Positions 14,524-27,532 of a DNA stretch of 64,000 bases are shown here, piece after piece. The notes below the pieces were generated by a model, which ran no database searches, had not been told where the DNA came from, and worked only from the letters and a program-made list of their open reading frames with translations. How positions within the stretch are numbered: the stretch's first letter is position 1; each line of letters opens with the position of its first letter. A program made the position numbers and the translations under genes. Origin of the DNA: Rhodospirillales bacterium (GTDB lineage: Bacteria > Pseudomonadota > Alphaproteobacteria > TMED109); NCBI GenBank assembly GCA_028824295.1, contig JAPPED010000007.1, positions 1 to 64,000 of the forward strand, written 5' to 3'.

Positions 14524-15138
14524 CTAACGCTCTGTCGTGAGGCCCCCCGCCTCCACGATGAATTCCGCCACCGCGCGGACGCCCTTGCCGTGCTTCACCT
14601 GCGCGAACAGGAAGGGGCGTGAACCGCGCATCCGTTTCGTATCACGGTCCATCACCTCAAGGTCCGCGCCAACCAGCGGCGCAAGATCGGTCTTGTTGAT
14701 GATCAGCAGGTCGGATCGGGTGATTCCAGGGCCGCCCTTGCGCGGAATCTTGTCGCCCGCCGAGACATCGATCACGTAGAGGGTCAGGTCGGCGAGTTCC
14801 GGCGAAAACGTCGCTGCGAGATTGTCGCCGCCGGATTCCACGAACACCACGTCGAGGTCGGGGAATTCGGCCTCCAGTTGCGCGATCGCCGCCAAATTCA
14901 TCGAGGCGTCCTCGCGAATCGCGGTGTGGGGACATCCGCCGGTCTCGACCCCCTGGATCCGTTCCGGGGTGAGCGCCCCGGAGCGGGTCAGGAACTCGGC
15001 ATCCTCACGGGTGTAGATGTCATTCGTGATGGCCGCAATGTCGTAACTGTCGCGCATCGCCTTGCACAGGCCGTCCAGCAAGGCCGTCTTGCCGGAGCCG
15101 ACGGGCCCGCCGATGCCCACGCGGAACGGTGTGGTCAT
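14524..15138 (-). CDS. ureG: Urease accessory GTPase UreG
   Basis: UreG is the GTPase that, with UreF, UreD and UreE, inserts nickel and carbamylates the urease active-site lysine. The 204-residue product has a P-loop GGPVGSGKT at residues 10-18, the metal-binding Cys-Pro-His in [15 protein letters not shown], and NKTDLAP for guanine recognition. The start is the ATG at 15138, which overlaps the ureF stop by four bases; earlier in-frame methionines belong to antisense of ureF. It is the last gene of the urea operon. Confidence 0.96.
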
Positions 15139-15806
15139 GATCGGAATAACCTCGTGTATTGGGTTTCGTGCCGGATGGACGTCCAGTCCACGGCGACTGC
15201 TGCGGAGCCGATGTCGTCCAACGATCGGCCGAGCGCCTCGTCCGTTGCCTGGAGGACGTCCGCTTCGAGATCGGCCAGAATGCGCTGCCCGGCGACCTGT
15301 CCGAGCGGGATCAGCCGAATCCCGGCGGACACCAGGTTCGCCGTCACTGCATGGAGGTAGGCGGCCAGCCCCTCCCGAACCGGGATGTCCTCCCGGGCGA
15401 CAGCGGCGGCGACGCTGATCGGATATACCGGCGGCGGGTGCCCGTCCGCCGAACCGTCGCCGTTCCACGCCGCTGCAACCGTATCCGCGAAGGCGGTGCC
15501 CTGTGCGGTGGTCTCGGCCGCGATCTCGAACGTGCCGCGCATGGCCCGGCCCAGCGCTCCCACCGCGGCCAGGCGCTCGGCGTCACCGCACCGGACCGCG
15601 TGCCAGGTCTCCCGGTAGAGATCGGCATCGACGCGCGCGGCGCCAAACCGGAGAATGCCGCGTACCCACGTTGCCAGCGTGTCCTGGTCGTGGACCAGTC
15701 CGGCCTCGACGGCATACTCGATGCCGTGCGAGTACGCGTAGGCACCGACCGGGAACGACGGTCCGAGCCATGCCATCAGGCGGATGATGCGCCGATCGGC
15801 TTCCAC
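15135..15806 (-). CDS. ureF: Urease accessory protein UreF
   Basis: UreF acts with UreD and UreG in the nickel-loading complex and is thought to gate GTP hydrolysis. The 223-residue product starts at a GTG placed so that the family N-terminus is intact ([25 protein letters not shown] aligns with the usual LLRLLQLxSPxLPVGAFSYSxGLE). [11 protein letters not shown] and the C-terminal [14 protein letters not shown] are also typical. The start lies eight bases after the ureE stop. A later ATG inside the conserved block would truncate it. Confidence 0.92.
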
Positions 15807-15814
15807 ACCCGGAG

Positions 15815-16282
15815 CTACCCGCGGTCTTCCCCGGGATCGGACGCGGCGTGCGCGTACGCGCCCGCTTCCGGCGAAAACGGGGCTTGCCGCCGTCGCGTGG
15901 CAGCACCCAGCCCCTCCGCCATCCCGGCCAATACGTGGTCGTCCTGAATCCTGAGACCCCCGTCCGCCAGCACTTGCAGCGGGGCATGGCGATTGCCGAT
16001 GTGCCATGCCACCCTGGCCGCGTGCGCCGCCGATTCGCAGCGGATGTCGACGACCGGTTCGGGAGCCGCCCGGACCAGCACCGCGCCGCCGTCGGCGAGC
16101 GTCAGTCCATCACCGTCCCGCAGTCGGGGCACGGTCTCCAGTTCGAGGAGCAGCGGTTCGCCGTCATCGCCGCGGAGCCGCCCACGGCGACGCTGTCGAT
16201 CGTCGTGCGTCAGCGTCACCGACGGCCCCCCCGGCGGCGGTGTCCAGGCGCCGTGGCGCAGCACCGCGATCGCGCGTCGCAT
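15815..16282 (-). CDS. ureE: Urease accessory nickel chaperone UreE
   Basis: UreE is the dimeric metallochaperone that carries nickel to the urease activation complex. The 155-residue product has the N-terminal peptide-binding-like domain (LTHDDRQRRRGRL) and the metal-binding domain with the conserved GNRH followed by APLQV. It lacks the His-rich C-terminal tail of the Klebsiella type, as many homologues do, and ends in a short AHAASDPGEDRG tail. It sits 14 bases after ureC and eight before ureF. Confidence 0.9.
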   Translation of the reverse strand: MRRAIAVLRHGAWTPPPGGPSVTLTHDDRQRRRGRLRGDDGEPLLLELETVPRLRDGDGLTLADGGAVLVRAAPEPVVDIRCESAAHAARVAWHIGNRHAPLQVLADGGLRIQDDHVLAGMAEGLGAATRRRQAPFSPEAGAYAHAASDPGEDRG

Positions 16283-16296
16283 CGCCGTCGTCGCAC

Positions 16297-18003
16297 TCAG
16301 AAGAGAAAGTAGCGCTGGGCCATCGGCAATCGGGTTGCCGGCTCGCAGGTCAGCAGCGCTCCGTCAGCGCGGACCTCGTACGTCTCCGGGTCGACGTCGA
16401 TCGCCGGGCAGAGATCGTTCAGCACCATGTCCTTCTTGCCGAGCGCACGGGTACCCGACACCGCCACCAACCGCTTCGTCAGTCCCAGTTCGCCCAGTCC
16501 GTCCTCCAGGCCCGCCTGCGAGACGAACGTCACCGATGACGCAGACCGGGCTCGACCCAGCGCCGCGAACATCGGGCGGTAGTGCACGGGCTGCGGCGTG
16601 GGAATCGACGCGTTCGGGTCCCCCATCGCCGCCGCGGCGATCGCTCCTCCCTTGAGCACGAGATCGGGTTTGACGCCGAAGAACATCGGCTTCCACAGCA
16701 CCAGGTCGGCCAGCTTGCCCACCTCGACCGAGCCGACCTCGCCGTCGATCCCGTGCGTCCGGGCCGGATTGATCGTGTATTTCGCGATGTAGCGCCGCAC
16801 CCTGAAGTTGTCGTTGTCGCCGCGCTCCTCCGGGAGTCGGCCGCGCTGCTGCTTCATCTTGTCGGCGGTCTGCCAGGTCCGGACAATGACTTCGCCGACC
16901 CGACCCATGGCCTGACTGTCGGAGGCGATCATCGAGAACGCCCCGAGATCGTGCAGGATGTCCTCCGCCGCGATGGTCTCGCGCCGAATGCGGCTCTCCG
17001 CAAAAGCCACGTCCTCCGGAATGTTCGGGTCCAGGTGATGGCACACCATGAGCATGTCGAGGTGCTCGTCGACGGTGTTCACGGTGAACGGACGGGTGGG
17101 ATTGGTGCTGGACGGCAACACGTTGGGCTCACCACAAAGCCTGATGATGTCCGGCGCATGGCCGCCGCCGGCCCCTTCGGTGTGGAACGCATGAATGGTG
17201 CGGTTCCGGAACGCGGCCGTCGTGGTCTCGAGGTAGCCCGACTCGTTCAGCGTGTCGGTATGGATCGCGACGCCGATGTCCCACTCGTCGGCGACGGACA
17301 GGCACGTGTCGATGGCCGCGGGCGTGGTACCCCAGTCCTCGTGCAGCTTCAGGCCGCAGGCTCCGGCGCGCACCTGCTCGACCAGCGCCGTCGGCTCGGA
17401 GGCGTTCCCCTTGCCGTAGAAGCCCAGATTGACGGGCAGCTCCTCCGCGGCCTCCAGCATGCGTGCCAGGTGCCAGGGCCCCGGCGTGCACGTCGTCGCA
17501 TTCGTCCCTTCGGCAGGACCCGTGCCGCCGCCCAGCATCGTGGTGACACCCGAGTAGAGGGCATCGTCGACCTGCTGCGGGCAGATCCAGTGAATGTGCG
17601 CATCAATGCCGCCGGCGGTCAGGATGCGGCCCTCGCCGGCGATCGCCTCGGTGCCCGGCCCGACGACGATGTCCACGTTCGGCTGCGTATCCGGATTGCC
17701 GGCCTTGCCGATTGCGGCGATCCGTCCATCGCGAAGGCCCACGTCCGCCTTGACCACTCCCCAGTGATCGACGATCAGGGCGTTCGTGATCACGGTGTCC
17801 ACCGCACCAGCCGCACGGCCGGCAGATCCCTGGCCCATGCCGTCGCGGATGACCTTGCCGCCGCCGAACTTGACCTCCTCGCCGTACACGGTCCGATCGG
17901 CTTCCACCTCGACGAACAGGTCGGTGTCGGCCAGCCGGACCCGGTCGCCGACCGTCGGCCCGTACATGGCGGCGTAGGCCGCCCGCTCGATGGAAAATGG
18001 CAC
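16297..18003 (-). CDS. ureC: Urease subunit alpha (catalytic)
   Basis: This 568-residue subunit contains the binuclear nickel centre that hydrolyses urea to ammonia and carbamate. All expected active-site residues are visible: His136 and His138 (HIHW), the carbamylated Lys219 in GLKLHEDWG, His221, His248, His274 in [15 protein letters not shown], the mobile-flap Cys321/His322 in MVCHHLDP, and Asp362 in [11 protein letters not shown]. The length is that of the normal separate alpha subunit, so gamma and beta are not fused. It lies three bases after ureB. Confidence 0.98.
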
Positions 18004-18006
18004 GGC

Positions 18007-18318
18007 CTAGTCCTCCAATGGGCCTTGAACCCGGGCATTGAACCCGCGGACGATCCGAGCGCCGGCGTAGGGAATGAGCTGCGCCTCGCGCCGCTGGCCC
18101 GGCTCGAACCGCATCGCGGTCCCGGCTGGAATGTCGAGGCGGCGGCCCCGTGCCGCATCGCGGTCGAACTCGAGCGCGGTGTTGACCTCGAAGAAGTGGT
18201 AGTGCGAGCCGACCTGGATCGGCCGGTCGCCGGTGTTGGCCACCGTGATCGTGATGGTGTCGGCCTCTGCGTTGAGGAGCAGCGACCCGGGCGCGGTAAT
18301 GATCTCACCGGGAATCAT
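18007..18318 (-). CDS. ureB: Urease subunit beta
   Basis: This 103-residue beta subunit is part of the (alpha-beta-gamma)3 urease core. It has the opening MIPGEII, the [21 protein letters not shown] signature, and [10 protein letters not shown] followed by the [12 protein letters not shown] end. Its start overlaps the 3' end of ureA by 14 bases, and ureC begins three bases after its stop, as in other three-subunit ureases. Confidence 0.97.
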
Positions 18319-18637
18319 CGGTCATCTCCCGATTGCAGCGGATGGGCTGGTGCACGGTGACCAGCTTGGTACCGTCGGGGAACGTGGCCTCGACCTGGAT
18401 CTCGGGGATCATGTCGGCGACGCCCTCCATGACCTGATCGCGGCGCAGGACGCCGGTCCCGTCGCGCATCAGGTCCGCGACGGAAGCTCCGTCCCGCGCG
18501 CCCTCCACGATGTAGTCAGTGATAAGGGCGACCGCTTCTGGATAGTTCAGCCGGACGCCACGCTCGAACCGTCGGCGCGCGACGATAGCGGCCATGGCAA
18601 TGAGCAGCTTGTCCTTTTCCCGCGGCGAAAGATTCAT
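18305..18637 (-). CDS. ureA: Urease subunit gamma
   Basis: This 110-residue gamma subunit of urease has the family opening [20 protein letters not shown], the [21 protein letters not shown] helix and the [28 protein letters not shown] ending. A ribosome-binding GGAGGA lies directly upstream of the ATG. It starts 15 bases after ureD and overlaps ureB by 14 bases. Confidence 0.97.
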
Positions 18638-18652
18638 CCATGTCCTCCCGAA

Positions 18653-19513
18653 TCAAACGTGCCAGAGCCGAGGCAGGGTGGCGGCGAGACCCGCCGCGGA
18701 GGCGCGAAACCCCGCCCAGAAGGTCGCAAACGCGCGGCGGACGTCGTCTCCGTGCGCCGCGAGCCACCGGACGACCAGCACGCCGTTGACGACCGTGGCC
18801 CCGGCGCGCACGCCGGCCGGCAGATCGTCAAGCAGGCGCCGAGCCTCCTGCTGCCGTGCGGGCGCGTCATCCGCGGCGTAGACCGCGCAGGCCACCGCCC
18901 GCGCGCCGCCGAAGCCGGCCGGGTGGTCGAGCACATCCAGCAGGTCGTCCTCGACGTGGAGCGCGTCGGCCCAGACGAGGTCGTCGCCCCTGCGCACCTC
19001 CCACGCCTCGCGGACCAGCCCTCGCGTCATCCGCTCGCCGGACGCAATCCGCCCAAGCACCAGGAACTCTCCGGCCAGGACCCGCCCCCCGGGCGCCCGG
19101 TCGATGCGGACCCGGCGCCGCAGCCGTGCCTGATCGAACAGGATCGTCTCCTGGGGCAGCCACTCGAGCCACGTGCCTTCCGCGGCCTCCAGGCGGACAT
19201 CGATTCGGCAATCCGCACCGGTCGAGCGGTACACCTTTTCCGCCGCCTGCGCGGCCACGATCGCGGAAGCCCCGTCCGCGGCGGATGCGGTGACGTCGAT
19301 CCGGTCACCGCCGACGAGCCCGCCCGACGTCGTCACGAGCGCCGCCAGCGGCGGTTCGGCGGCAGGCTGGGCTGGAAACAGGACCCGCATCGGATCGCGC
19401 TGGTACAGGTGGCGCAGCGAGGCCGTGCCGACGCCCGCAAAGCCGACCTCGGCCACGCCGTGGACGCCGTGTCCGGACACCGGCGCTTCAGACGGTAAGG
19501 CGGCGGCGGACAT
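18653..19513 (-). CDS. ureD: Urease accessory protein UreD (UreH)
   Basis: UreD is the scaffold that binds apourease and recruits UreF and UreG for nickel insertion. The 286-residue product has the typical GVAEVGFAGVGTASLRHLYQRDPMRVLFP opening, TSGGLVGGDRIDVTASA, and WLEWLPQETILFDQARLRRR. The ATG at 19513 gives normal length and lies inside the end of urtE (26-base overlap). That overlap ties the urea transporter genes to the urease genes in one transcript. Confidence 0.94.
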   Translation of the reverse strand: MSAAALPSEAPVSGHGVHGVAEVGFAGVGTASLRHLYQRDPMRVLFPAQPAAEPPLAALVTTSGGLVGGDRIDVTASAADGASAIVAAQAAEKVYRSTGADCRIDVRLEAAEGTWLEWLPQETILFDQARLRRRVRIDRAPGGRVLAGEFLVLGRIASGERMTRGLVREAWEVRRGDDLVWADALHVEDDLLDVLDHPAGFGGARAVACAVYAADDAPARQQEARRLLDDLPAGVRAGATVVNGVLVVRWLAAHGDDVRRAFATFWAGFRASAAGLAATLPRLWHV

Positions 19514-20183
19514 CTTCCTCAACCATGTCGTCAGACTTGCCCGCCAGCACCACTTCGCCCCGGTCCATGACGACGAAGTCGTCGGCGAGGTCGCGCGCGA
19601 ACTCGAAGTACTGCTCCACGAGCAGGATCGCCATGTCCCCACGGGCGGCCAGTGTCCGGATCACCCGTTCGATGTCCTTGATGATCGACGGCTGGATGCC
19701 CTCCGTCGGCTCGTCGAGCACCAGCAGCCGGGGCCGCATCACCAATGCCCGGGCGATTGCCAGCTGCTGCTGCTGGCCGCCGGACAGATCGCCGCCGCGG
19801 CGACCGAGCATGTCGCGCAGGACGGGGAACAGGTGGAAGATCTCCTCCGGCAGCGTACGGGTCGGCCGGGGCAGGGAGGCATAGCCGGTGTAGAGGTTCT
19901 CGCGGACGCTGAGGAGCGGGAAAATCTCGCGCCCCTGGGGCACGTAGGCGATACCCCGGGCGGCGCGCTGGTACGCTGCGAGCGCCGAGATGTCGGCACC
20001 CTCCCACAGGATCCGGCCGGCGCTGATCATCTGCTGGCCGACGATGGCGCGGAGCAGCGTGGTCTTCCCCACGCCGTTGCGCCCCATCACGCAGGTCACG
20101 CGGCCAGGTTCCGCGCTCAGGCTGACCTGCCGCAGCGCCTGGCTGGCCCCGTAGTGGAAATCGATGGCCTCGACCTGCAGCAT
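19488..20183 (-). CDS. urtE: Urea ABC transporter ATP-binding protein UrtE
   Basis: This is one of the two ATPases that power the urea ABC importer, homologous to LivF of branched-chain amino acid transporters. The 231-residue product has a Walker A motif GRNGVGKTT at residues 34-42, the signature LSGGQQQQLAIARAL and Walker B LLVLDEPTEGIQPSI, all characteristic of UrtE. It follows urtD after two bases and overlaps ureD by 26 bases. Distinguished from LivF by its operon context and the EGIQPSII sequence. Confidence 0.95.
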   Translation of the reverse strand: MLQVEAIDFHYGASQALRQVSLSAEPGRVTCVMGRNGVGKTTLLRAIVGQQMISAGRILWEGADISALAAYQRAARGIAYVPQGREIFPLLSVRENLYTGYASLPRPTRTLPEEIFHLFPVLRDMLGRRGGDLSGGQQQQLAIARALVMRPRLLVLDEPTEGIQPSIIKDIERVIRTLAARGDMAILLVEQYFEFARDLADDFVVMDRGEVVLAGKSDDMVEEDVRRRLTV

Positions 20184-20185
20184 GG

Positions 20186-20959
20186 CTAGCGCCCCAGGTA
20201 CACCTCGACCACCCGCGCGTCGTTTTGCACGGCATCGAGGGTCCCTTCGGCCAGCACCGCGCCTTCGTGCAGCACCGTGACCCGGCAACCCAGGCCCCGC
20301 ACGAACGCCATGTCGTGCTCCACCACGACGACCGAACGCGATCCGGCAATCCGGGTGAGCAGCGCCACGGTCTGCTCGGTTTCCTCGTCGGTCATGCCGG
20401 CGGCCGGCTCGTCGACCAGCAGGAGTTCGGGATCCTGCATCAGCAACATCCCGATCTCGAGCCATTGTTTCTGGCCATGAGACAGGTCGCCCGCCCGACG
20501 GTCGCGATGGGAGCTCAGGGCGGTCGTCTCGAGCACCCCGTCGATCCGCTCGCGAGAAGCGGCGCCGAGGCGGGCGAACAGGCTGCCGAACACCCCGCGG
20601 GTGCCCGCGAGTGCCAGCTCCAGGTTGTCGAAGACGGTGTGTTCCTCGAACACGGTGGGCTTCTGGAACTTCCGGCCGATTCCCAGATTGGCAATTGCCG
20701 CTTCGTCCAGTTGCGTGAGATCGATGCCCCCGTTGAACTCCACCTGGCCGCGATCGGGCCGGGTCTTGCCCGTGACCACGTCCATCATCGTCGTCTTACC
20801 GGCACCGTTGGGTCCGATCACGGCGCGAAGTTCGCCCACCTCGACATAGAAGCTGAGATCGTTCAGGGCCTTGAAGCCGTCGAACGACACCGATACGCCG
20901 TCGAGGTACAGGATGGTGTCGTGCAGTTCCGGCCGCGCCTGGACAGGGACATCGCTCAT
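20186..20959 (-). CDS. urtD: Urea ABC transporter ATP-binding protein UrtD
   Basis: This 257-residue LivG-like ATPase pairs with UrtE. Walker A is GPNGAGKTT at residues 49-57. The LSHGQKQWLEIGMLL signature is the variant typical of UrtD, followed by Walker B LLLVDEPAAGMTDEE. The ATG at 20959 overlaps the urtC stop by four bases. An upstream extension of the frame belongs to antisense/other-frame sequence of urtC. Confidence 0.95.
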   Translation of the reverse strand: MSDVPVQARPELHDTILYLDGVSVSFDGFKALNDLSFYVEVGELRAVIGPNGAGKTTMMDVVTGKTRPDRGQVEFNGGIDLTQLDEAAIANLGIGRKFQKPTVFEEHTVFDNLELALAGTRGVFGSLFARLGAASRERIDGVLETTALSSHRDRRAGDLSHGQKQWLEIGMLLMQDPELLLVDEPAAGMTDEETEQTVALLTRIAGSRSVVVVEHDMAFVRGLGCRVTVLHEGAVLAEGTLDAVQNDARVVEVYLGR

Positions 20960-22110
20960 AGCGCCGATTCCGGGGACCGAGCCCGGCCGGGCCGGCGCCG
21001 CCAGCGGTCGCCTGCCCGCTTGAAGACCGGCACGGTCCCGACGAGCCCCTTCGGCAGGAACAGGGTCACGGCGATGAACAGCCCCCCCAGGACAAACAGC
21101 CACATGTCAGGGAGCGCCCCAGTGAACACCGTCTTCGCGTAGTTGACGAGAATCGCCCCGAGCACAGCGCCGTACAGGGATCCACGGCCGCCCACCGCCA
21201 CCCAGACCACGATCTCGATCGACGCTGCCGGCGCGAACTCGGACGGGTTGATGATGCCGACCTGCGGCACGTACAGGGCGCCGGCGAGACCGGCCAGCAT
21301 GGCCGACAGGACGAAGACGAAGAGCTTGTAATGCTCCACTCGGTAACCCAGGAACCGGACCCGGGTCTCGGCATCTCGCACCGCGACCAGCACCCTCCCG
21401 GCGCGGCTGCGGACGATGAAGCGCCCGAGCAGGTAGCCCAAGGCCACGGCCAACGCGCTTGCGCAGAAGAGCGCGACGCGGGTGCCGTCCGCCTGCAGGT
21501 TGAACCCCAGCAGGTCCTTGAAGTCGGTCAGCCCGTTGTTGCCTCCGAAGCCCATGTCGTTGCGGAAGAACGCGAGCATGAGCGCGAACGTCATCGCCTG
21601 GGTGATGATCGAGAGATAGACGCCGGTCACCCGCGAGCGGAACGCGAACCAGCCAAAGACCAACGCCAGCGCGCCCGGCACGACCAGCGCCATGACCATC
21701 GCGAACGGGAACCAGTCGAATCCGTGCCAGTACCAGGGCAGCTCCTCCCAGTCGAGGAAGACCATGAAATCCGGCAGTTCGGGATGCCCGTAGACCCCCC
21801 GGTCGCCGATCTGGCGCATCATGTACATGCCCATGGCGTAGCCGCCGAGCGCAAAGAATGCGCCGTGGCCAAGGCTGAGCACGCCCGCGTACCCCCAGAT
21901 CAGGTCGACGCTCAGGGCCAGCAACGCGAACGTCAGGTACTTGCCCAGCAGGCTGACGACGTAGGTCGGAACGTGCAGGACCGAATCCGCAGGCAGCAGC
22001 AGGTTGGAAATCGGCACCACCACGACGGCCGCCAGCAGCACGGCCAGCAGGATCTGGCCGCCCCGATTGCCGGCGAGCAGATCGACGAGCACCGACCGGA
22101 CCACCATCAT
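20956..22110 (-). CDS. urtC: Urea ABC transporter permease UrtC
   Basis: This 384-residue LivM-like permease is one half of the membrane channel of the urea importer. It has about ten hydrophobic helices, the LSVDLIWGYAGVLSLGHGAFFALGGYAMGMYM signature, and the cytoplasmic EAA-like coupling region near VRDAETRVRFLGYRVEHYK. The start abuts the urtB stop (22111) with no gap. The GDRGVYGHPELPDFMVFLDW loop is typical of UrtC. Confidence 0.95.
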   Translation of the reverse strand: MMVVRSVLVDLLAGNRGGQILLAVLLAAVVVVPISNLLLPADSVLHVPTYVVSLLGKYLTFALLALSVDLIWGYAGVLSLGHGAFFALGGYAMGMYMMRQIGDRGVYGHPELPDFMVFLDWEELPWYWHGFDWFPFAMVMALVVPGALALVFGWFAFRSRVTGVYLSIITQAMTFALMLAFFRNDMGFGGNNGLTDFKDLLGFNLQADGTRVALFCASALAVALGYLLGRFIVRSRAGRVLVAVRDAETRVRFLGYRVEHYKLFVFVLSAMLAGLAGALYVPQVGIINPSEFAPAASIEIVVWVAVGGRGSLYGAVLGAILVNYAKTVFTGALPDMWLFVLGGLFIAVTLFLPKGLVGTVPVFKRAGDRWRRRPGRARSPESAL

Positions 22111-23757
22111 TCAGCTTTCCGCCGCCCGGCCCTTGAGGGCGAACAGGCCGCGCGGCCGCTTCTGGATGAACAGGATGATGGCCACCAGCACGAGGATCTT
22201 CGCGAGAACCGCGCCGGCAAACGGCTCCAGGAACTTGTTGATGACCCCGAGGCTCATGGCGCCGACCAGGGTTCCCCAGAGATTGCCGACCCCGCCGAAC
22301 ACCACGACCATGAAGCTGTCGACGATGTAGGCCTGCCCGAGATTGGGGCTCACGTTGTCGATCTGGCTGAGAGCCACCCCGGCCACGCCCGCGATGCCCG
22401 CGCCCAGACCGAAGGTCGCGGCATCGATCCACCCGGTGCGGATCCCCATGGATGACGCCATCGACCGGTTCTGGGTCACCGCCCGCATGTACAGCCCCAA
22501 GGCGGTGCGTCGAAGGACCAGCGCGATGCCGGCGACCACCAGCAGGCTGAAGATGATGATGGCGACCCGGTTGTAGGGAAGCACCAGCCCCGTCGCTGTC
22601 TCGAACGCCCCGCTCAGCCACGACGGGCTCGACACCTCGCGGTTGGTCGGTCCGAACACCGTCCGCACCAGCTGCTGCAGGATGAGGCTCAGCCCCCAAG
22701 TCGCCAGCAGGGTCTCGAACGGCCGCCCGTAGAGCCAGCGAATGACGCTGCGCTCGATCGCGACCCCGGCGGCTCCGGCGACGAGAAAGGCCGCCGGCAC
22801 GGCCACCGCCAGGGAATAGTCGAGGCCGCCCGGGGCAAAGTCACGGAAGAGCTGCTGGACCACGAAGGTCGTGTAGGCGCCGAGCATCACCAGTTCGCCA
22901 TGGGCCATGTTGATGACGCCCATGACCCCGAACGTGATGGCCAGCCCCACGGCCGCTAGGAGCAACACCGAACCAAGGCTGAGGCCCTGGAAGATGGCGC
23001 CCAGAAGGTTCCAGAAGGCGAGATCCCGCTCGACCGCATCCAGCGCCTCGGCGGCGGTCGCCCGGACCTCCCCATCCGGTTCGCTCTCCTGGCTGAGGCT
23101 GGCCAGCAGCGACCGGACTTCCGGAAGCGCTGACTCGGAAAGGCGCTCCACCGCAGCCAGCCGAACATCGAGCGGGAAGTCCGGATTGGTCTCGATCGCT
23201 GCCTTGGCGAGCGTGAGCTGGTCGAGGAGACCCTGATCCTCCTCCCGGGCAATCGCCTGTTCCACGGTCTCCAGCGCCCCTGCATCGCGCGCCGCAAACA
23301 CCGCCGCCGCCGCCTCCTCGCGCCGGTCGGGATCGTCGGACAGCAGGGTCAGGCCGCCAAGCGCCGCCTTGATCACGCCGCGCAGGCGATTGTTGACCTT
23401 GACCTTCTTGAGTTCCTTCTTCCTGGCGTCGCCGACCGCACTGTCGTCCAGGGCATTCGTCAGCGCATAGACCTTGCCGGTCTTGTGGCCGATCACGATC
23501 ACCCCGTCCGCCTTGCGCACGAACAATTGACCCTTCGCCATGGCCTCGAGGATCGGAATGGCCCTCGGGTGCCCGGTCGCCGCCAGGACCTCGACTCCGA
23601 CCGCGCGGTCCTTGTAGCTCTTGGCCGACAGTCCCTGGACCGCTTCTTCCAGTGTCGCTGCGTGGCTGGCTGGAGCGCCGCCTGCAACGGTCGCCGCGAA
23701 CGCGAAGCATGCGAACACCGCGGCCAACAAGGGCAGGGCAAATCCGCGTGTCGGCAT
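22111..23757 (-). CDS. urtB: Urea ABC transporter permease UrtB, long form
   Basis: This LivH-like permease has 548 residues instead of the roughly 300 of LivH. A Sec signal peptide (residues about 1-34) precedes a periplasmic helical, HEAT-like domain of about 210 residues (repeated LAAVERLSE, VRSLLASLS type helices). The membrane domain starts at about residue 255 and carries MGVINMAHGELVMLGAYTTFV. This long architecture is normal for UrtB of proteobacteria. It is separated from urtA by 120 bases holding a strong stem-loop, the only sizeable gap in the operon. Confidence 0.95.
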   Translation of the reverse strand: MPTRGFALPLLAAVFACFAFAATVAGGAPASHAATLEEAVQGLSAKSYKDRAVGVEVLAATGHPRAIPILEAMAKGQLFVRKADGVIVIGHKTGKVYALTNALDDSAVGDARKKELKKVKVNNRLRGVIKAALGGLTLLSDDPDRREEAAAAVFAARDAGALETVEQAIAREEDQGLLDQLTLAKAAIETNPDFPLDVRLAAVERLSESALPEVRSLLASLSQESEPDGEVRATAAEALDAVERDLAFWNLLGAIFQGLSLGSVLLLAAVGLAITFGVMGVINMAHGELVMLGAYTTFVVQQLFRDFAPGGLDYSLAVAVPAAFLVAGAAGVAIERSVIRWLYGRPFETLLATWGLSLILQQLVRTVFGPTNREVSSPSWLSGAFETATGLVLPYNRVAIIIFSLLVVAGIALVLRRTALGLYMRAVTQNRSMASSMGIRTGWIDAATFGLGAGIAGVAGVALSQIDNVSPNLGQAYIVDSFMVVVFGGVGNLWGTLVGAMSLGVINKFLEPFAGAVLAKILVLVAIILFIQKRPRGLFALKGRAAES

Positions 23758-23877: not shown

Positions 23878-25167
23878 CTACATGTCGGCGATCGCGCCGA
23901 ACTTCGGGGCCTCGCAGTTGCCGCAGACCCACGGGAAGGTCCAGTCGGCAGTCAGCTTCGCGCTTTCGGGAATGAAGTCCGACCAAGCGTCACCCTTGAC
24001 CACCCCGTCGGTTTCCCAGACCGTTTCGAACTGCCCGTCATCCTGGATCTCGCCGATGAGGACCGGCTTCGACAGGTGATGGTTGGTGTTCATCATGGCC
24101 ATGCCGCCGGTCAGGTTCTTGAAGGTCTGGCCGTACATGGCCTGCCGTACGGCATCGACATCCACCGTCCCGGCCTGCTGCACCGCCTGCACCCACATGT
24201 TGAAGCCGATGTAATGGGCTTCCATGGGGTCGTTCGTCACGCGGTCCTCGTCCTCGATGAACGCGTGCCATTTCTCGATGAACGCCTCGTTCTCGTCGGT
24301 CTCCACGCTCATGAAGTAGTTCCACGCCGCGAGGTGGCCTACGAGCGGTTCGGTGTCGAGCCCGGCCAGTTCCTCTTCGCCGACCGAGAAGGCAACCACG
24401 GGAATGTCCTCGGCCTTGATGCCCTGGTTGGCCAGCTCCTTGTAGAACGGGACATTGGCGTCGCCGTTGATTGTCGAGACCACGGCCGTCTTCTTGCCTT
24501 CGGAAGCGAACTTCTTGACATCCCCCACGATCGTCTGCCAGTCGGCGTGCCCGAACGGCGTGTAGTTCTCCAGGATGTCCTCGTCGGAGATTCCCTTCGC
24601 GTTCAGGTATGCGCGGAGGATCTTGTTGGTTGTACGCGGGTACACGTAGTCCGTGCCCAGGAGCGCGATCCGTTCGGCTCCACCGCCGTCCTCGCTGAGG
24701 AGATAGTCAACCGCGGGAATGGCCTGCTGATTCGGAGCTGCGCCGGTGTAGAACACGTTCCGGGAGCTCTCTTCGCCTTCGTACTGGACGGGATAGAACA
24801 GCAGTCCGTTGAGCTCCTCGATCACCGGCAGCACCGACTTGCGGGATACCGAGGTCCAGTTCCCGAAGATCACGGCAACTTCATGCTGCTCGATCAGCTC
24901 GCGAGCCTTTTCGGCAAAGAGGGGCCAGTTCGATGCTGGATCAACGACGACTGGTTCAAGCATCTTGCCGAGCAGGCCGCCCTTGCTGTTCTGCTCCTCG
25001 ATGAGCATCAGCATCGTGTCCTTCAACGTGGTCTCGCTGATGGCCATCGTGCCGGAGAGTGAATGCAGGACCCCGACCTTGATGGTCTCGGCCTGCGCCG
25101 CTCCACTCAGTGCGGTCGACGCGGCCAGGATGCCTGCGAAGACCAGGTGACGCTGGTTTCGAAACAT
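23878..25167 (-). CDS. urtA: Urea ABC transporter substrate-binding protein UrtA
   Basis: This periplasmic binding protein captures urea (or short amides) for UrtBCDE. The 429-residue product starts with a Sec signal peptide (MFRNQRHLVFAGILAASTALSGAAQA, cleavage expected after AQA). It continues with the family sequence ETIKVGVLHSLSGTMAISE, NSKGGLLGK, FPVQYEGEE-like FYPVQYEGEESS, and a Cys pair WVCGNCEAPKFG at the C-terminus. The ATG at 25167 has a GGAGAAA ribosome-binding sequence; the frame extends further upstream but without family similarity. It is the first gene of the urea operon, behind a sigma-54-type promoter. Confidence 0.96.
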   Translation of the reverse strand: MFRNQRHLVFAGILAASTALSGAAQAETIKVGVLHSLSGTMAISETTLKDTMLMLIEEQNSKGGLLGKMLEPVVVDPASNWPLFAEKARELIEQHEVAVIFGNWTSVSRKSVLPVIEELNGLLFYPVQYEGEESSRNVFYTGAAPNQQAIPAVDYLLSEDGGGAERIALLGTDYVYPRTTNKILRAYLNAKGISDEDILENYTPFGHADWQTIVGDVKKFASEGKKTAVVSTINGDANVPFYKELANQGIKAEDIPVVAFSVGEEELAGLDTEPLVGHLAAWNYFMSVETDENEAFIEKWHAFIEDEDRVTNDPMEAHYIGFNMWVQAVQQAGTVDVDAVRQAMYGQTFKNLTGGMAMMNTNHHLSKPVLIGEIQDDGQFETVWETDGVVKGDAWSDFIPESAKLTADWTFPWVCGNCEAPKFGAIADM

Positions 25168-25186
25168 AGAATTTCTCCGTGAAGTC

Positions 25187-25232
25187 TGGTGCACACCCAC
25201 CGATGTCCGGGGCCGCTTTGCGGACTGCACCA
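25187..25232 (-). promoter_or_regulatory. Inverted repeat in the predicted urtA leader RNA
   Basis: TGGTGCA at 25187-25193 and TGCACCA at 25226-25232 form a perfect 7-base-pair stem, with inner complementarity (GTCCG with CGGAC, and CCGC with GCGG). On the predicted transcript the stem begins about two bases after the expected start site and ends just before the ribosome-binding sequence. It could stabilise the mRNA. The half-sites also match those of NtrC boxes, but in the outward order and too far apart. Confidence 0.4.
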
Positions 25233-25244
25233 CGCCTTCACAGA

Positions 25245-25260
25245 AGCAAGCTTTATGCCA
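25245..25260 (-). promoter_or_regulatory. Sigma-54 (RpoN) promoter of the urea operon
   Basis: On the minus strand the sequence reads TGGCATAAAGCTTGCT. It has the invariant GG (-24) and GC (-12) separated by exactly ten bases, a TGGCA first block and a perfect TTGCT second block, against the consensus TGGCACG-N4-TTGCA/T. The expected start site is near 25234, giving a leader of about 67 bases before the urtA ATG. Sigma-54 promoters depend on an activator bound upstream, and an NtrC-like dyad lies about 134 bases before the start site. Confidence 0.65.
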
Positions 25261-25323
25261 TTTTTGCGGCTGAATGTTCCGAGCCAGCCTGGAAACCGAA
25301 TCTGCAGGCAACCTGATCTGAAG

Positions 25324-25335
25324 TATATGCATATA
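25324..25335. promoter_or_regulatory. 12-base palindrome TATATGCATATA in AT-rich region
   Basis: A perfect 12-base palindrome lies in the most AT-rich stretch of the window (about 25320-25380), between the sigma-54 element and the NtrC-like dyad. It could be a regulator site or part of a bend-prone segment needed for looping. No specific regulator can be named. Confidence 0.35.
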
Positions 25336-25359
25336 TGATAATCAATAATGAAAATAGTA

Positions 25360-25376
25360 TGCCTATATCTTAGGCA
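25360..25376. promoter_or_regulatory. NtrC-like enhancer site TGC-N11-GCA
   Basis: The sequence TGCCTATATCTTAGGCA is a dyad (8-base arms TATGCCTA / TAGGCATA at 25358-25378) with TGC and GCA separated by 11 bases. That is the architecture of the NtrC site TGCACC-N5-GGTGCA. Its centre is about 134 bases upstream of the start site predicted from the sigma-54 element, a usual enhancer distance. It could also serve the divergent gene at 25534. Confidence 0.5.
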
Positions 25377-25533
25377 TAATGCCCCACCAAGGCCGATGTT
25401 TCGCTGCTCGCCGCAACGCCGCCGTCCGCTTTCGTCCCCGCTCTGGAAACCCGGGCCTGCGCGAGCTACAAAGCGGTGCTCGCCCAGGCGGGATCTCCAG
25501 CAACCCACCTCGCCCGAATCGGATTTAGCCCTC

Positions 25534-26656: not shown

Positions 26657-27532
26657 ATGACGAAACCGGTCTTCGGGGTGGTGGGCGGCAGCGGCATCTA
26701 CGAGCTCGACTCGCTCGAGTCGCCGAGCTGGAAGACCGTAAGCTCCCCCTTTGGCGCGCCGTCAGACGCGATTCTTCACGGCCGGCTGAGAGGGCTGGAA
26801 TTTCGTTTCCTGCCGCGGCACGGCCGCGGCCACCGCATTCCTCCCAGCAGCCTCAACTTCCGGGCGAACATCGACGCGCTGAAGCGCACCGGCGTGACCG
26901 ACATCATCTCGCTTTCCGCCGCAGGGAGCCTCAGGGAGGACTTGCCGCCCGGTACATTCGTCCTAGTCGATCAGTTCATCGACCGCACCTTTGCGCGGGT
27001 CAAGAGCTTCTTCGGACCCGGTCTCGTGGCCCACGTCTCCATGGCCCATCCCACCTCGGATCGCCTTCGGCGACTGCTGGCCGAAGCGTCCAGCACTGCC
27101 GACATCGATGCGGTGAACGGGGGTACGTACCTGGCCATGGAAGGGCCGCAGTTCTCGACGCGAGCCGAATCCGAGCTCTACCGGTCCTGGGGCTGCGACG
27201 TGATCGGCATGACCAACATGCCGGAGGCGAAGCTGGCGCGCGAGGCCGAAATCGCCTACGCCAGCGTGGCGATGATGACCGATTACGACTGCTGGCACCC
27301 GGACCACGAGGCCGTGACGGTCGAGCAGGTCGTCGGCGTGCTGCTGGACAACGCCGCCCGCGCGAGGACGTTGGTCGAGGCTTTCGCGGACGCCGCCGCG
27401 GCCACGGACTGGGATGAGTCCGATCCTGCCTACCGTGCGCTCGACGAGGCCATTATCACGCCACCGGAGGCGCGCGACCCGGAACTCGCGAAGAAACTGG
27501 ATGCGGTGGCCGGACGGGCTCTGGAAAGCTAG
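26657..27532 (+). CDS. mtnP: S-methyl-5'-thioadenosine phosphorylase
   Basis: This 291-residue enzyme cleaves methylthioadenosine (from polyamine synthesis) to adenine and methylthioribose-1-phosphate, the first step of methionine salvage. It has the family opening FGVVGGSGIYEL, the phosphate-binding LPRHGRGHRIPPSSLNFRANI, SAAGSLRE, MEGPQFSTRAES and GMTNMPEAKLAREAEIAYASVAMMTDYDCW. The latter distinguishes MTA phosphorylases from purine nucleoside phosphorylases. It begins two bases after the FKBP stop. Other salvage genes (mtnA, mtnBCD) are not in the window. Confidence 0.95.
   Translation: MTKPVFGVVGGSGIYELDSLESPSWKTVSSPFGAPSDAILHGRLRGLEFRFLPRHGRGHRIPPSSLNFRANIDALKRTGVTDIISLSAAGSLREDLPPGTFVLVDQFIDRTFARVKSFFGPGLVAHVSMAHPTSDRLRRLLAEASSTADIDAVNGGTYLAMEGPQFSTRAESELYRSWGCDVIGMTNMPEAKLAREAEIAYASVAMMTDYDCWHPDHEAVTVEQVVGVLLDNAARARTLVEAFADAAAATDWDESDPAYRALDEAIITPPEARDPELAKKLDAVAGRALES

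Follow-up and report, generated by a model that had tools for sequence, protein, structure and literature searches.

The window, by which we mean the whole 64-kb stretch of DNA that was analysed, carries a cluster of urea genes, twelve in number as the preliminary description had stated: urtA, B, C, D and E together with ureD, A, B, C, E, F and G, all on the minus strand. The genes lie as follows:

23881..25167, minus strand: urtA, urea ABC transporter substrate-binding protein, the first gene of the operon (TIGR03407, 585 bits against a cut-off of 493)
19488..23757, minus strand: urtB, urtC, urtD and urtE (TIGR03409, TIGR03408, TIGR03411 and TIGR03410, all above cut-off; the start codons of urtD and urtE are unrefined in these coordinates)
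14524..19513, minus strand: ureD, ureA, ureB, ureC, ureE, ureF and ureG

The cluster has one clear gap, the 123 nt between urtA and urtB, which holds a weak terminator-like match. Terminator-like matches in this region were in total no commoner than in shuffled sequences, and the minus strand of the gap yielded no sigma-70-like site. We infer that all twelve urt and ure genes are carried on one long transcript. The urtA ATG at 25167 has its own Shine-Dalgarno sequence, GGAG, and the gene upstream of urtA, which is divergent, encodes a dienelactone-hydrolase family protein. An N-terminal extension of UrtA from upstream in-frame GTG codons was rejected because an in-frame TGA, which breaks the reading through the urtA leader, is present in two members of the genus.

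Promoters recognised by RpoN (sigma-54) have a GG and a GC ten bases apart within the form TGGCAC/TGGCAT-N5-TTGCW. A sequence that fits this form, with the GG and GC at that spacing, lies upstream of urtA:

25245..25260, minus strand: predicted sigma-54 (RpoN) -24/-12 promoter TGGCATAAAGCTTGCT, recognised by motif, score, and conservation in the genus and the class

Read on the minus strand from 25260 to 25245, the 16-mer has a GG to GC spacing of 10 nt and is separated from the urtA ATG by 78 nt; on re-reading, the sequence, strand, coordinates, spacing and 78-base distance given in the preliminary description were all exact. Two positions, both tolerated, set it apart from TGGCACG-N4-TTGCW (C to T and G to A). 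The RpoN matrix scan that had been suggested along with that description ranked the urtA site first in the window, with 17.9 bits on a matrix that is an approximation written from consensus knowledge, with no published table behind it; the runner-up had 12.5, which is 5.4 bits lower. This score was equalled in 2 of 2000 dinucleotide shuffles of the 378-nt intergenic region (one strand), and an equal match on either strand was present in 1 of 25 shuffles of the whole window. The predicted start of the urtA transcript is at about 25234, 12 nt after the GC.

Genome-wide, TGGCAYRN4TTGCW had exactly two matches, the urtA site and one at C8:77779. The latter was rejected as a promoter; it lies inside a DNA-methylase-like open reading frame and looks like a chance occurrence. 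Matches with at most one mismatch were not enriched either (59, versus 101 for the reversed pattern). These counts would suit a reading of TGGCATAAAGCTTGCT itself as a chance match to a short consensus, and since the genome-wide numbers are not above the control, matching the consensus is no proof of function. The case for a predicted sigma-54 site before urtA is instead one of position and conservation.

Across the seven genus genomes examined, the distance between the site and the urtA ATG is always exactly 78 nt. All seven share TGGCAT and TTGCT without change, while variation is seen in most of the spacer and in the base that follows TGGCAT, and in the 100 nt upstream of the site only 20% of positions are invariant. 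The pattern is a phylogenetic footprint that has the form of a sigma-54 motif.

The site also recurs across the class. Of the 89 alphaproteobacterial genomes that have both rpoN and a urtA orthologue, 72 had a site scoring 12 bits or more no farther than 300 nt upstream of urtA, whereas the reversed-motif control, at a slightly looser cut-off of at least 11 bits, was found in 2/89. In a second collection, of named genomes (Alphaproteobacteria, Gammaproteobacteria and others), the figures were 38 of 80 at 12 bits or more and 0/80 for the reversed control; both totals, 89 and 80, were taken among related genomes with kinship ignored. RpoN control of urtA is not universal, because 13 of the 89 rpoN-positive genomes scored below 11 bits.

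Four genomes of one family, each listed as 100% complete (G049, G180, G277 and G355), have urtA and no sigma-54 domain of either kind, and in these four no sigma-54 site was found before urtA. Two further genomes, G220 and G230, have the site with rpoN undetected; their assemblies are fragmented, and since rpoN is present in a genus-mate of G220, an assembly gap is the likely explanation. The fixed distance, the footprint in the genus, the class-wide recurrence before urtA and the absence of the site in the four rpoN-less genomes all contradict a chance match, the probability of which we consider negligible.

A separate observation concerns relatives in the same family (f1). The assemblies of G009, G016, G018, G020, G025 and others are only 0.8–1.7 Mb in size; urtA and the sigma-54 site are kept in G009, G020 and G025, and G016 and G018 have urtA and rpoN with no recognisable site.

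The genome encodes the proteins that a sigma-54 promoter would require. RpoN was identified by TIGR02395, above cut-off, and contains the AID, CBD and DBD domains as well as the RpoN box ARRTVAKYRRMMRIP. NtrC (L002, G000:C15) was identified by TIGR01818, also above cut-off, and has the GAFTGA motif, and NtrB is encoded beside it. One other full-length enhancer-binding protein, NtrX, was found; it is without GAFTGA, and a search of the genome (assembly about 98% complete) found no others. The activator of the urtA promoter, as judged from the encoded proteins, is likely NtrC, because the only other enhancer-binding protein lacks GAFTGA. A sigma-54 promoter served by a different enhancer-binding protein is an alternative that the incompleteness of the assembly, from which a gene could be missing, would allow; with two full-length enhancer-binding proteins found and GAFTGA in NtrC alone, we regard it as most improbable.

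A candidate binding site for NtrC is found farther upstream:

25358..25378, minus strand: 8-bp perfect inverted repeat TATGCCTA-agata-TAGGCATA, probable NtrC enhancer on the basis of the inverted repeat and of enrichment in the class

The core of the repeat, TGCCTAAGATATAGGCA, has the form TGC-N11-GCA and is centered some 134 bp before the predicted start. It is a perfect dyad, TGCCTA-N5-TAGGCA, the reference form being TGCACY-N5-RGTGCA. Palindromes of the TGC-N11-GCA type, defined as having at least 5 of 7 arm pairs, were found upstream of 11 of 66 urtA sigma-54 sites, compared with 0.83 in shuffles. Shuffling the region 1000 times gave a perfect 8-bp inverted repeat with any spacer of 0–12 nt in 55 cases. 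Within the genus G000 and G004 are the only members with an intact palindrome, and its left half is degenerate in several others. Since it is degenerate in the rest of the genus, we regard the TGCCTAAGATATAGGCA palindrome as no more than a probable NtrC enhancer.

A further alternative is that a sigma-70 promoter in the AT-rich stretch at 25320–25380 is the main driver, with NtrC or another factor on the palindrome, and that the -24/-12 match is weak or a relict. This stretch does contain TATACT-like words, and there is a precedent in the Alphaproteobacteria, as the NtrC of Caulobacter and the Rhodobacterales is without GAFTGA and acts with sigma-70 (PMC10274813). It is because of this precedent that the GAFTGA motif in the present NtrC matters, and its presence argues against a sigma-70 driver. 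In addition, a scan of the region between urtA and the divergent gene found no sigma-70-like promoter pair, and within the genus it is the -24/-12 site that is conserved, the AT-rich stretch showing little conservation. We consider a sigma-70 driver very unlikely.

Together, the invariance of the site in the genus, its recurrence before urtA in the class and its absence from the four rpoN-less genomes uphold the original reading of this sequence as a sigma-54 promoter. The preliminary description had named conservation of neither GG nor GC in related genomes as a finding that would speak against it; both are invariant in 7/7 genomes of the genus. Based on these sequence comparisons, we are highly confident that TGGCATAAAGCTTGCT is the sigma-54 promoter of a urtABCDE-ureDABCEFG operon that would be activated by NtrC under nitrogen scarcity. 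The broader proposal, that the whole import and hydrolysis pathway depends on RpoN and an activator, was supported, in that RpoN and a GAFTGA-bearing NtrC are encoded and the site is conserved; the transcript start and the single twelve-gene transcript are predicted.

In the mechanism we propose, RpoN-RNA polymerase would bind the -24/-12 element and stay closed. When nitrogen is scarce, NtrB would phosphorylate NtrC, which would bind its enhancer (probably the palindrome TGCCTAAGATATAGGCA, some 134 bp before the start), contact the polymerase with its GAFTGA loop by way of DNA looping, and open the promoter with ATP. Transcription from near 25234 would then lead to urea being imported and hydrolysed to ammonia.

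Control of this type has close precedents. In Bradyrhizobium sp. DOA9, expression of urtA-D and ureA-D is lost in rpoN mutants, and a sigma-54 site, TGGCATGGTTCTTGC, is listed at -77 for urtA-B-C (PMC13207237). The DOA9 promoter resembles the present one in class, first gene, motif type and, nearly, in distance; the difference is that rpoN mutant expression data support it, whereas the evidence for the present organism, which is another genome, is comparative. In Burkholderia cenocepacia H111, the urt-ure genes are down in an ntrC mutant and the urease cluster is among the common targets of sigma-54 and NtrC (PMC5491218). There too, urea transport and urease genes are in one cluster, which is NtrC-dependent, although H111 is a betaproteobacterium; the comparison covered the gene cluster and its regulation.

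In the parts of the reports available to us, NtrC regulon reconstructions include urtABCDEF and ureABC, with NtrC control predicted in Rhizobiales and Rhodobacterales (PMC5343134), and a comparative sigma-54 regulon survey places the urease genes of alpha- and betaproteobacteria, by prediction, under sigma-54 (PMC12316311). The predicted control of urea genes is the same as here, and the present lineage is not named in those parts. Because it has already been published that urt and ure genes are controlled by sigma-54 and NtrC, the finding for urtA, though correct and well supported, is an ordinary example from a lineage so far undescribed. For this lineage the prediction is that urea would be imported and hydrolysed in response to nitrogen limitation, with RpoN and NtrC as the switch.

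In the 3.0-Mb genome no enhancer-binding protein other than NtrC was found to have GAFTGA (G000:C15, L002, L003), and for this reason the RpoN regulon may be devoted mainly to nitrogen genes. Both the urea switch and a nitrogen-centered role of RpoN follow the known biology of related bacteria.

Only two aspects of the promoter are less usual, a dyad locked to the transcript start, present here as a half-site, and a strongly conserved leader:

25226..25231, minus strand: GGTGCA half-site at the predicted start, 15 nt after the GC, half of the TTGC-N3-GCAA dyad seen elsewhere in the class
25183..25244, minus strand: 5' leader of urtA, 77% invariant in the genus and nearly matching the first codons in this respect

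Many urtA promoters of the Alphaproteobacteria have a TTGC-N3-GCAA dyad that starts 9–11 nt after the GC, overlaps the expected transcript start and frequently has ACAACC behind it. At 7 or 8 of 8 matching positions the dyad was present in 12 of 97 class members, where shuffles gave 0.76, and in all but one of the 12 it began 9–11 nt after the GC; dyad-bearing loci include L112, L142, L199, L200, L208, L223 and others. The genus of the window carries only the GGTGCA half. When the composite of site and GGTGCA was searched as a pattern across 385 genomes, the matches were mostly scattered.

We tentatively raise the possibility, which we think less probable than its converse, that alphaproteobacterial urtA promoters have, at a fixed position relative to the transcript start, another functional element, either the operator of a second regulator or an element at the 5' end of the mRNA. 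If the dyad is an operator, the second regulator could block open-complex formation by sigma-54 polymerase or its escape. NtrX was rejected as the binder, as its predicted motif, GCA-N9-TGC (PMC7240162), does not match TTGC-N3-GCAA. The leader holds GGTGTGCACC, and in five relatives the perfect palindrome GGTGCGCACC. An RNA structure in the leader was rejected as unsupported, because no Rfam family matched and the fold z-score was 0.31.

Two genes for PII-type proteins were also observed in the genome. The PII gene beside glnA (L149, G000:C11 near 27344–27422) has a sigma-54-like sequence, TGGTACGAATTTTGCT, about 50–60 nt before its start codon, which we count in favour of the reading of the urtA promoter. 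The other gene, for a divergent P-II-like protein (L150, G000:C1:50207–50491), comes directly after repeated membrane-protein genes, whose products we take, from reading their sequences, to be putative DUF1538-type transporters.
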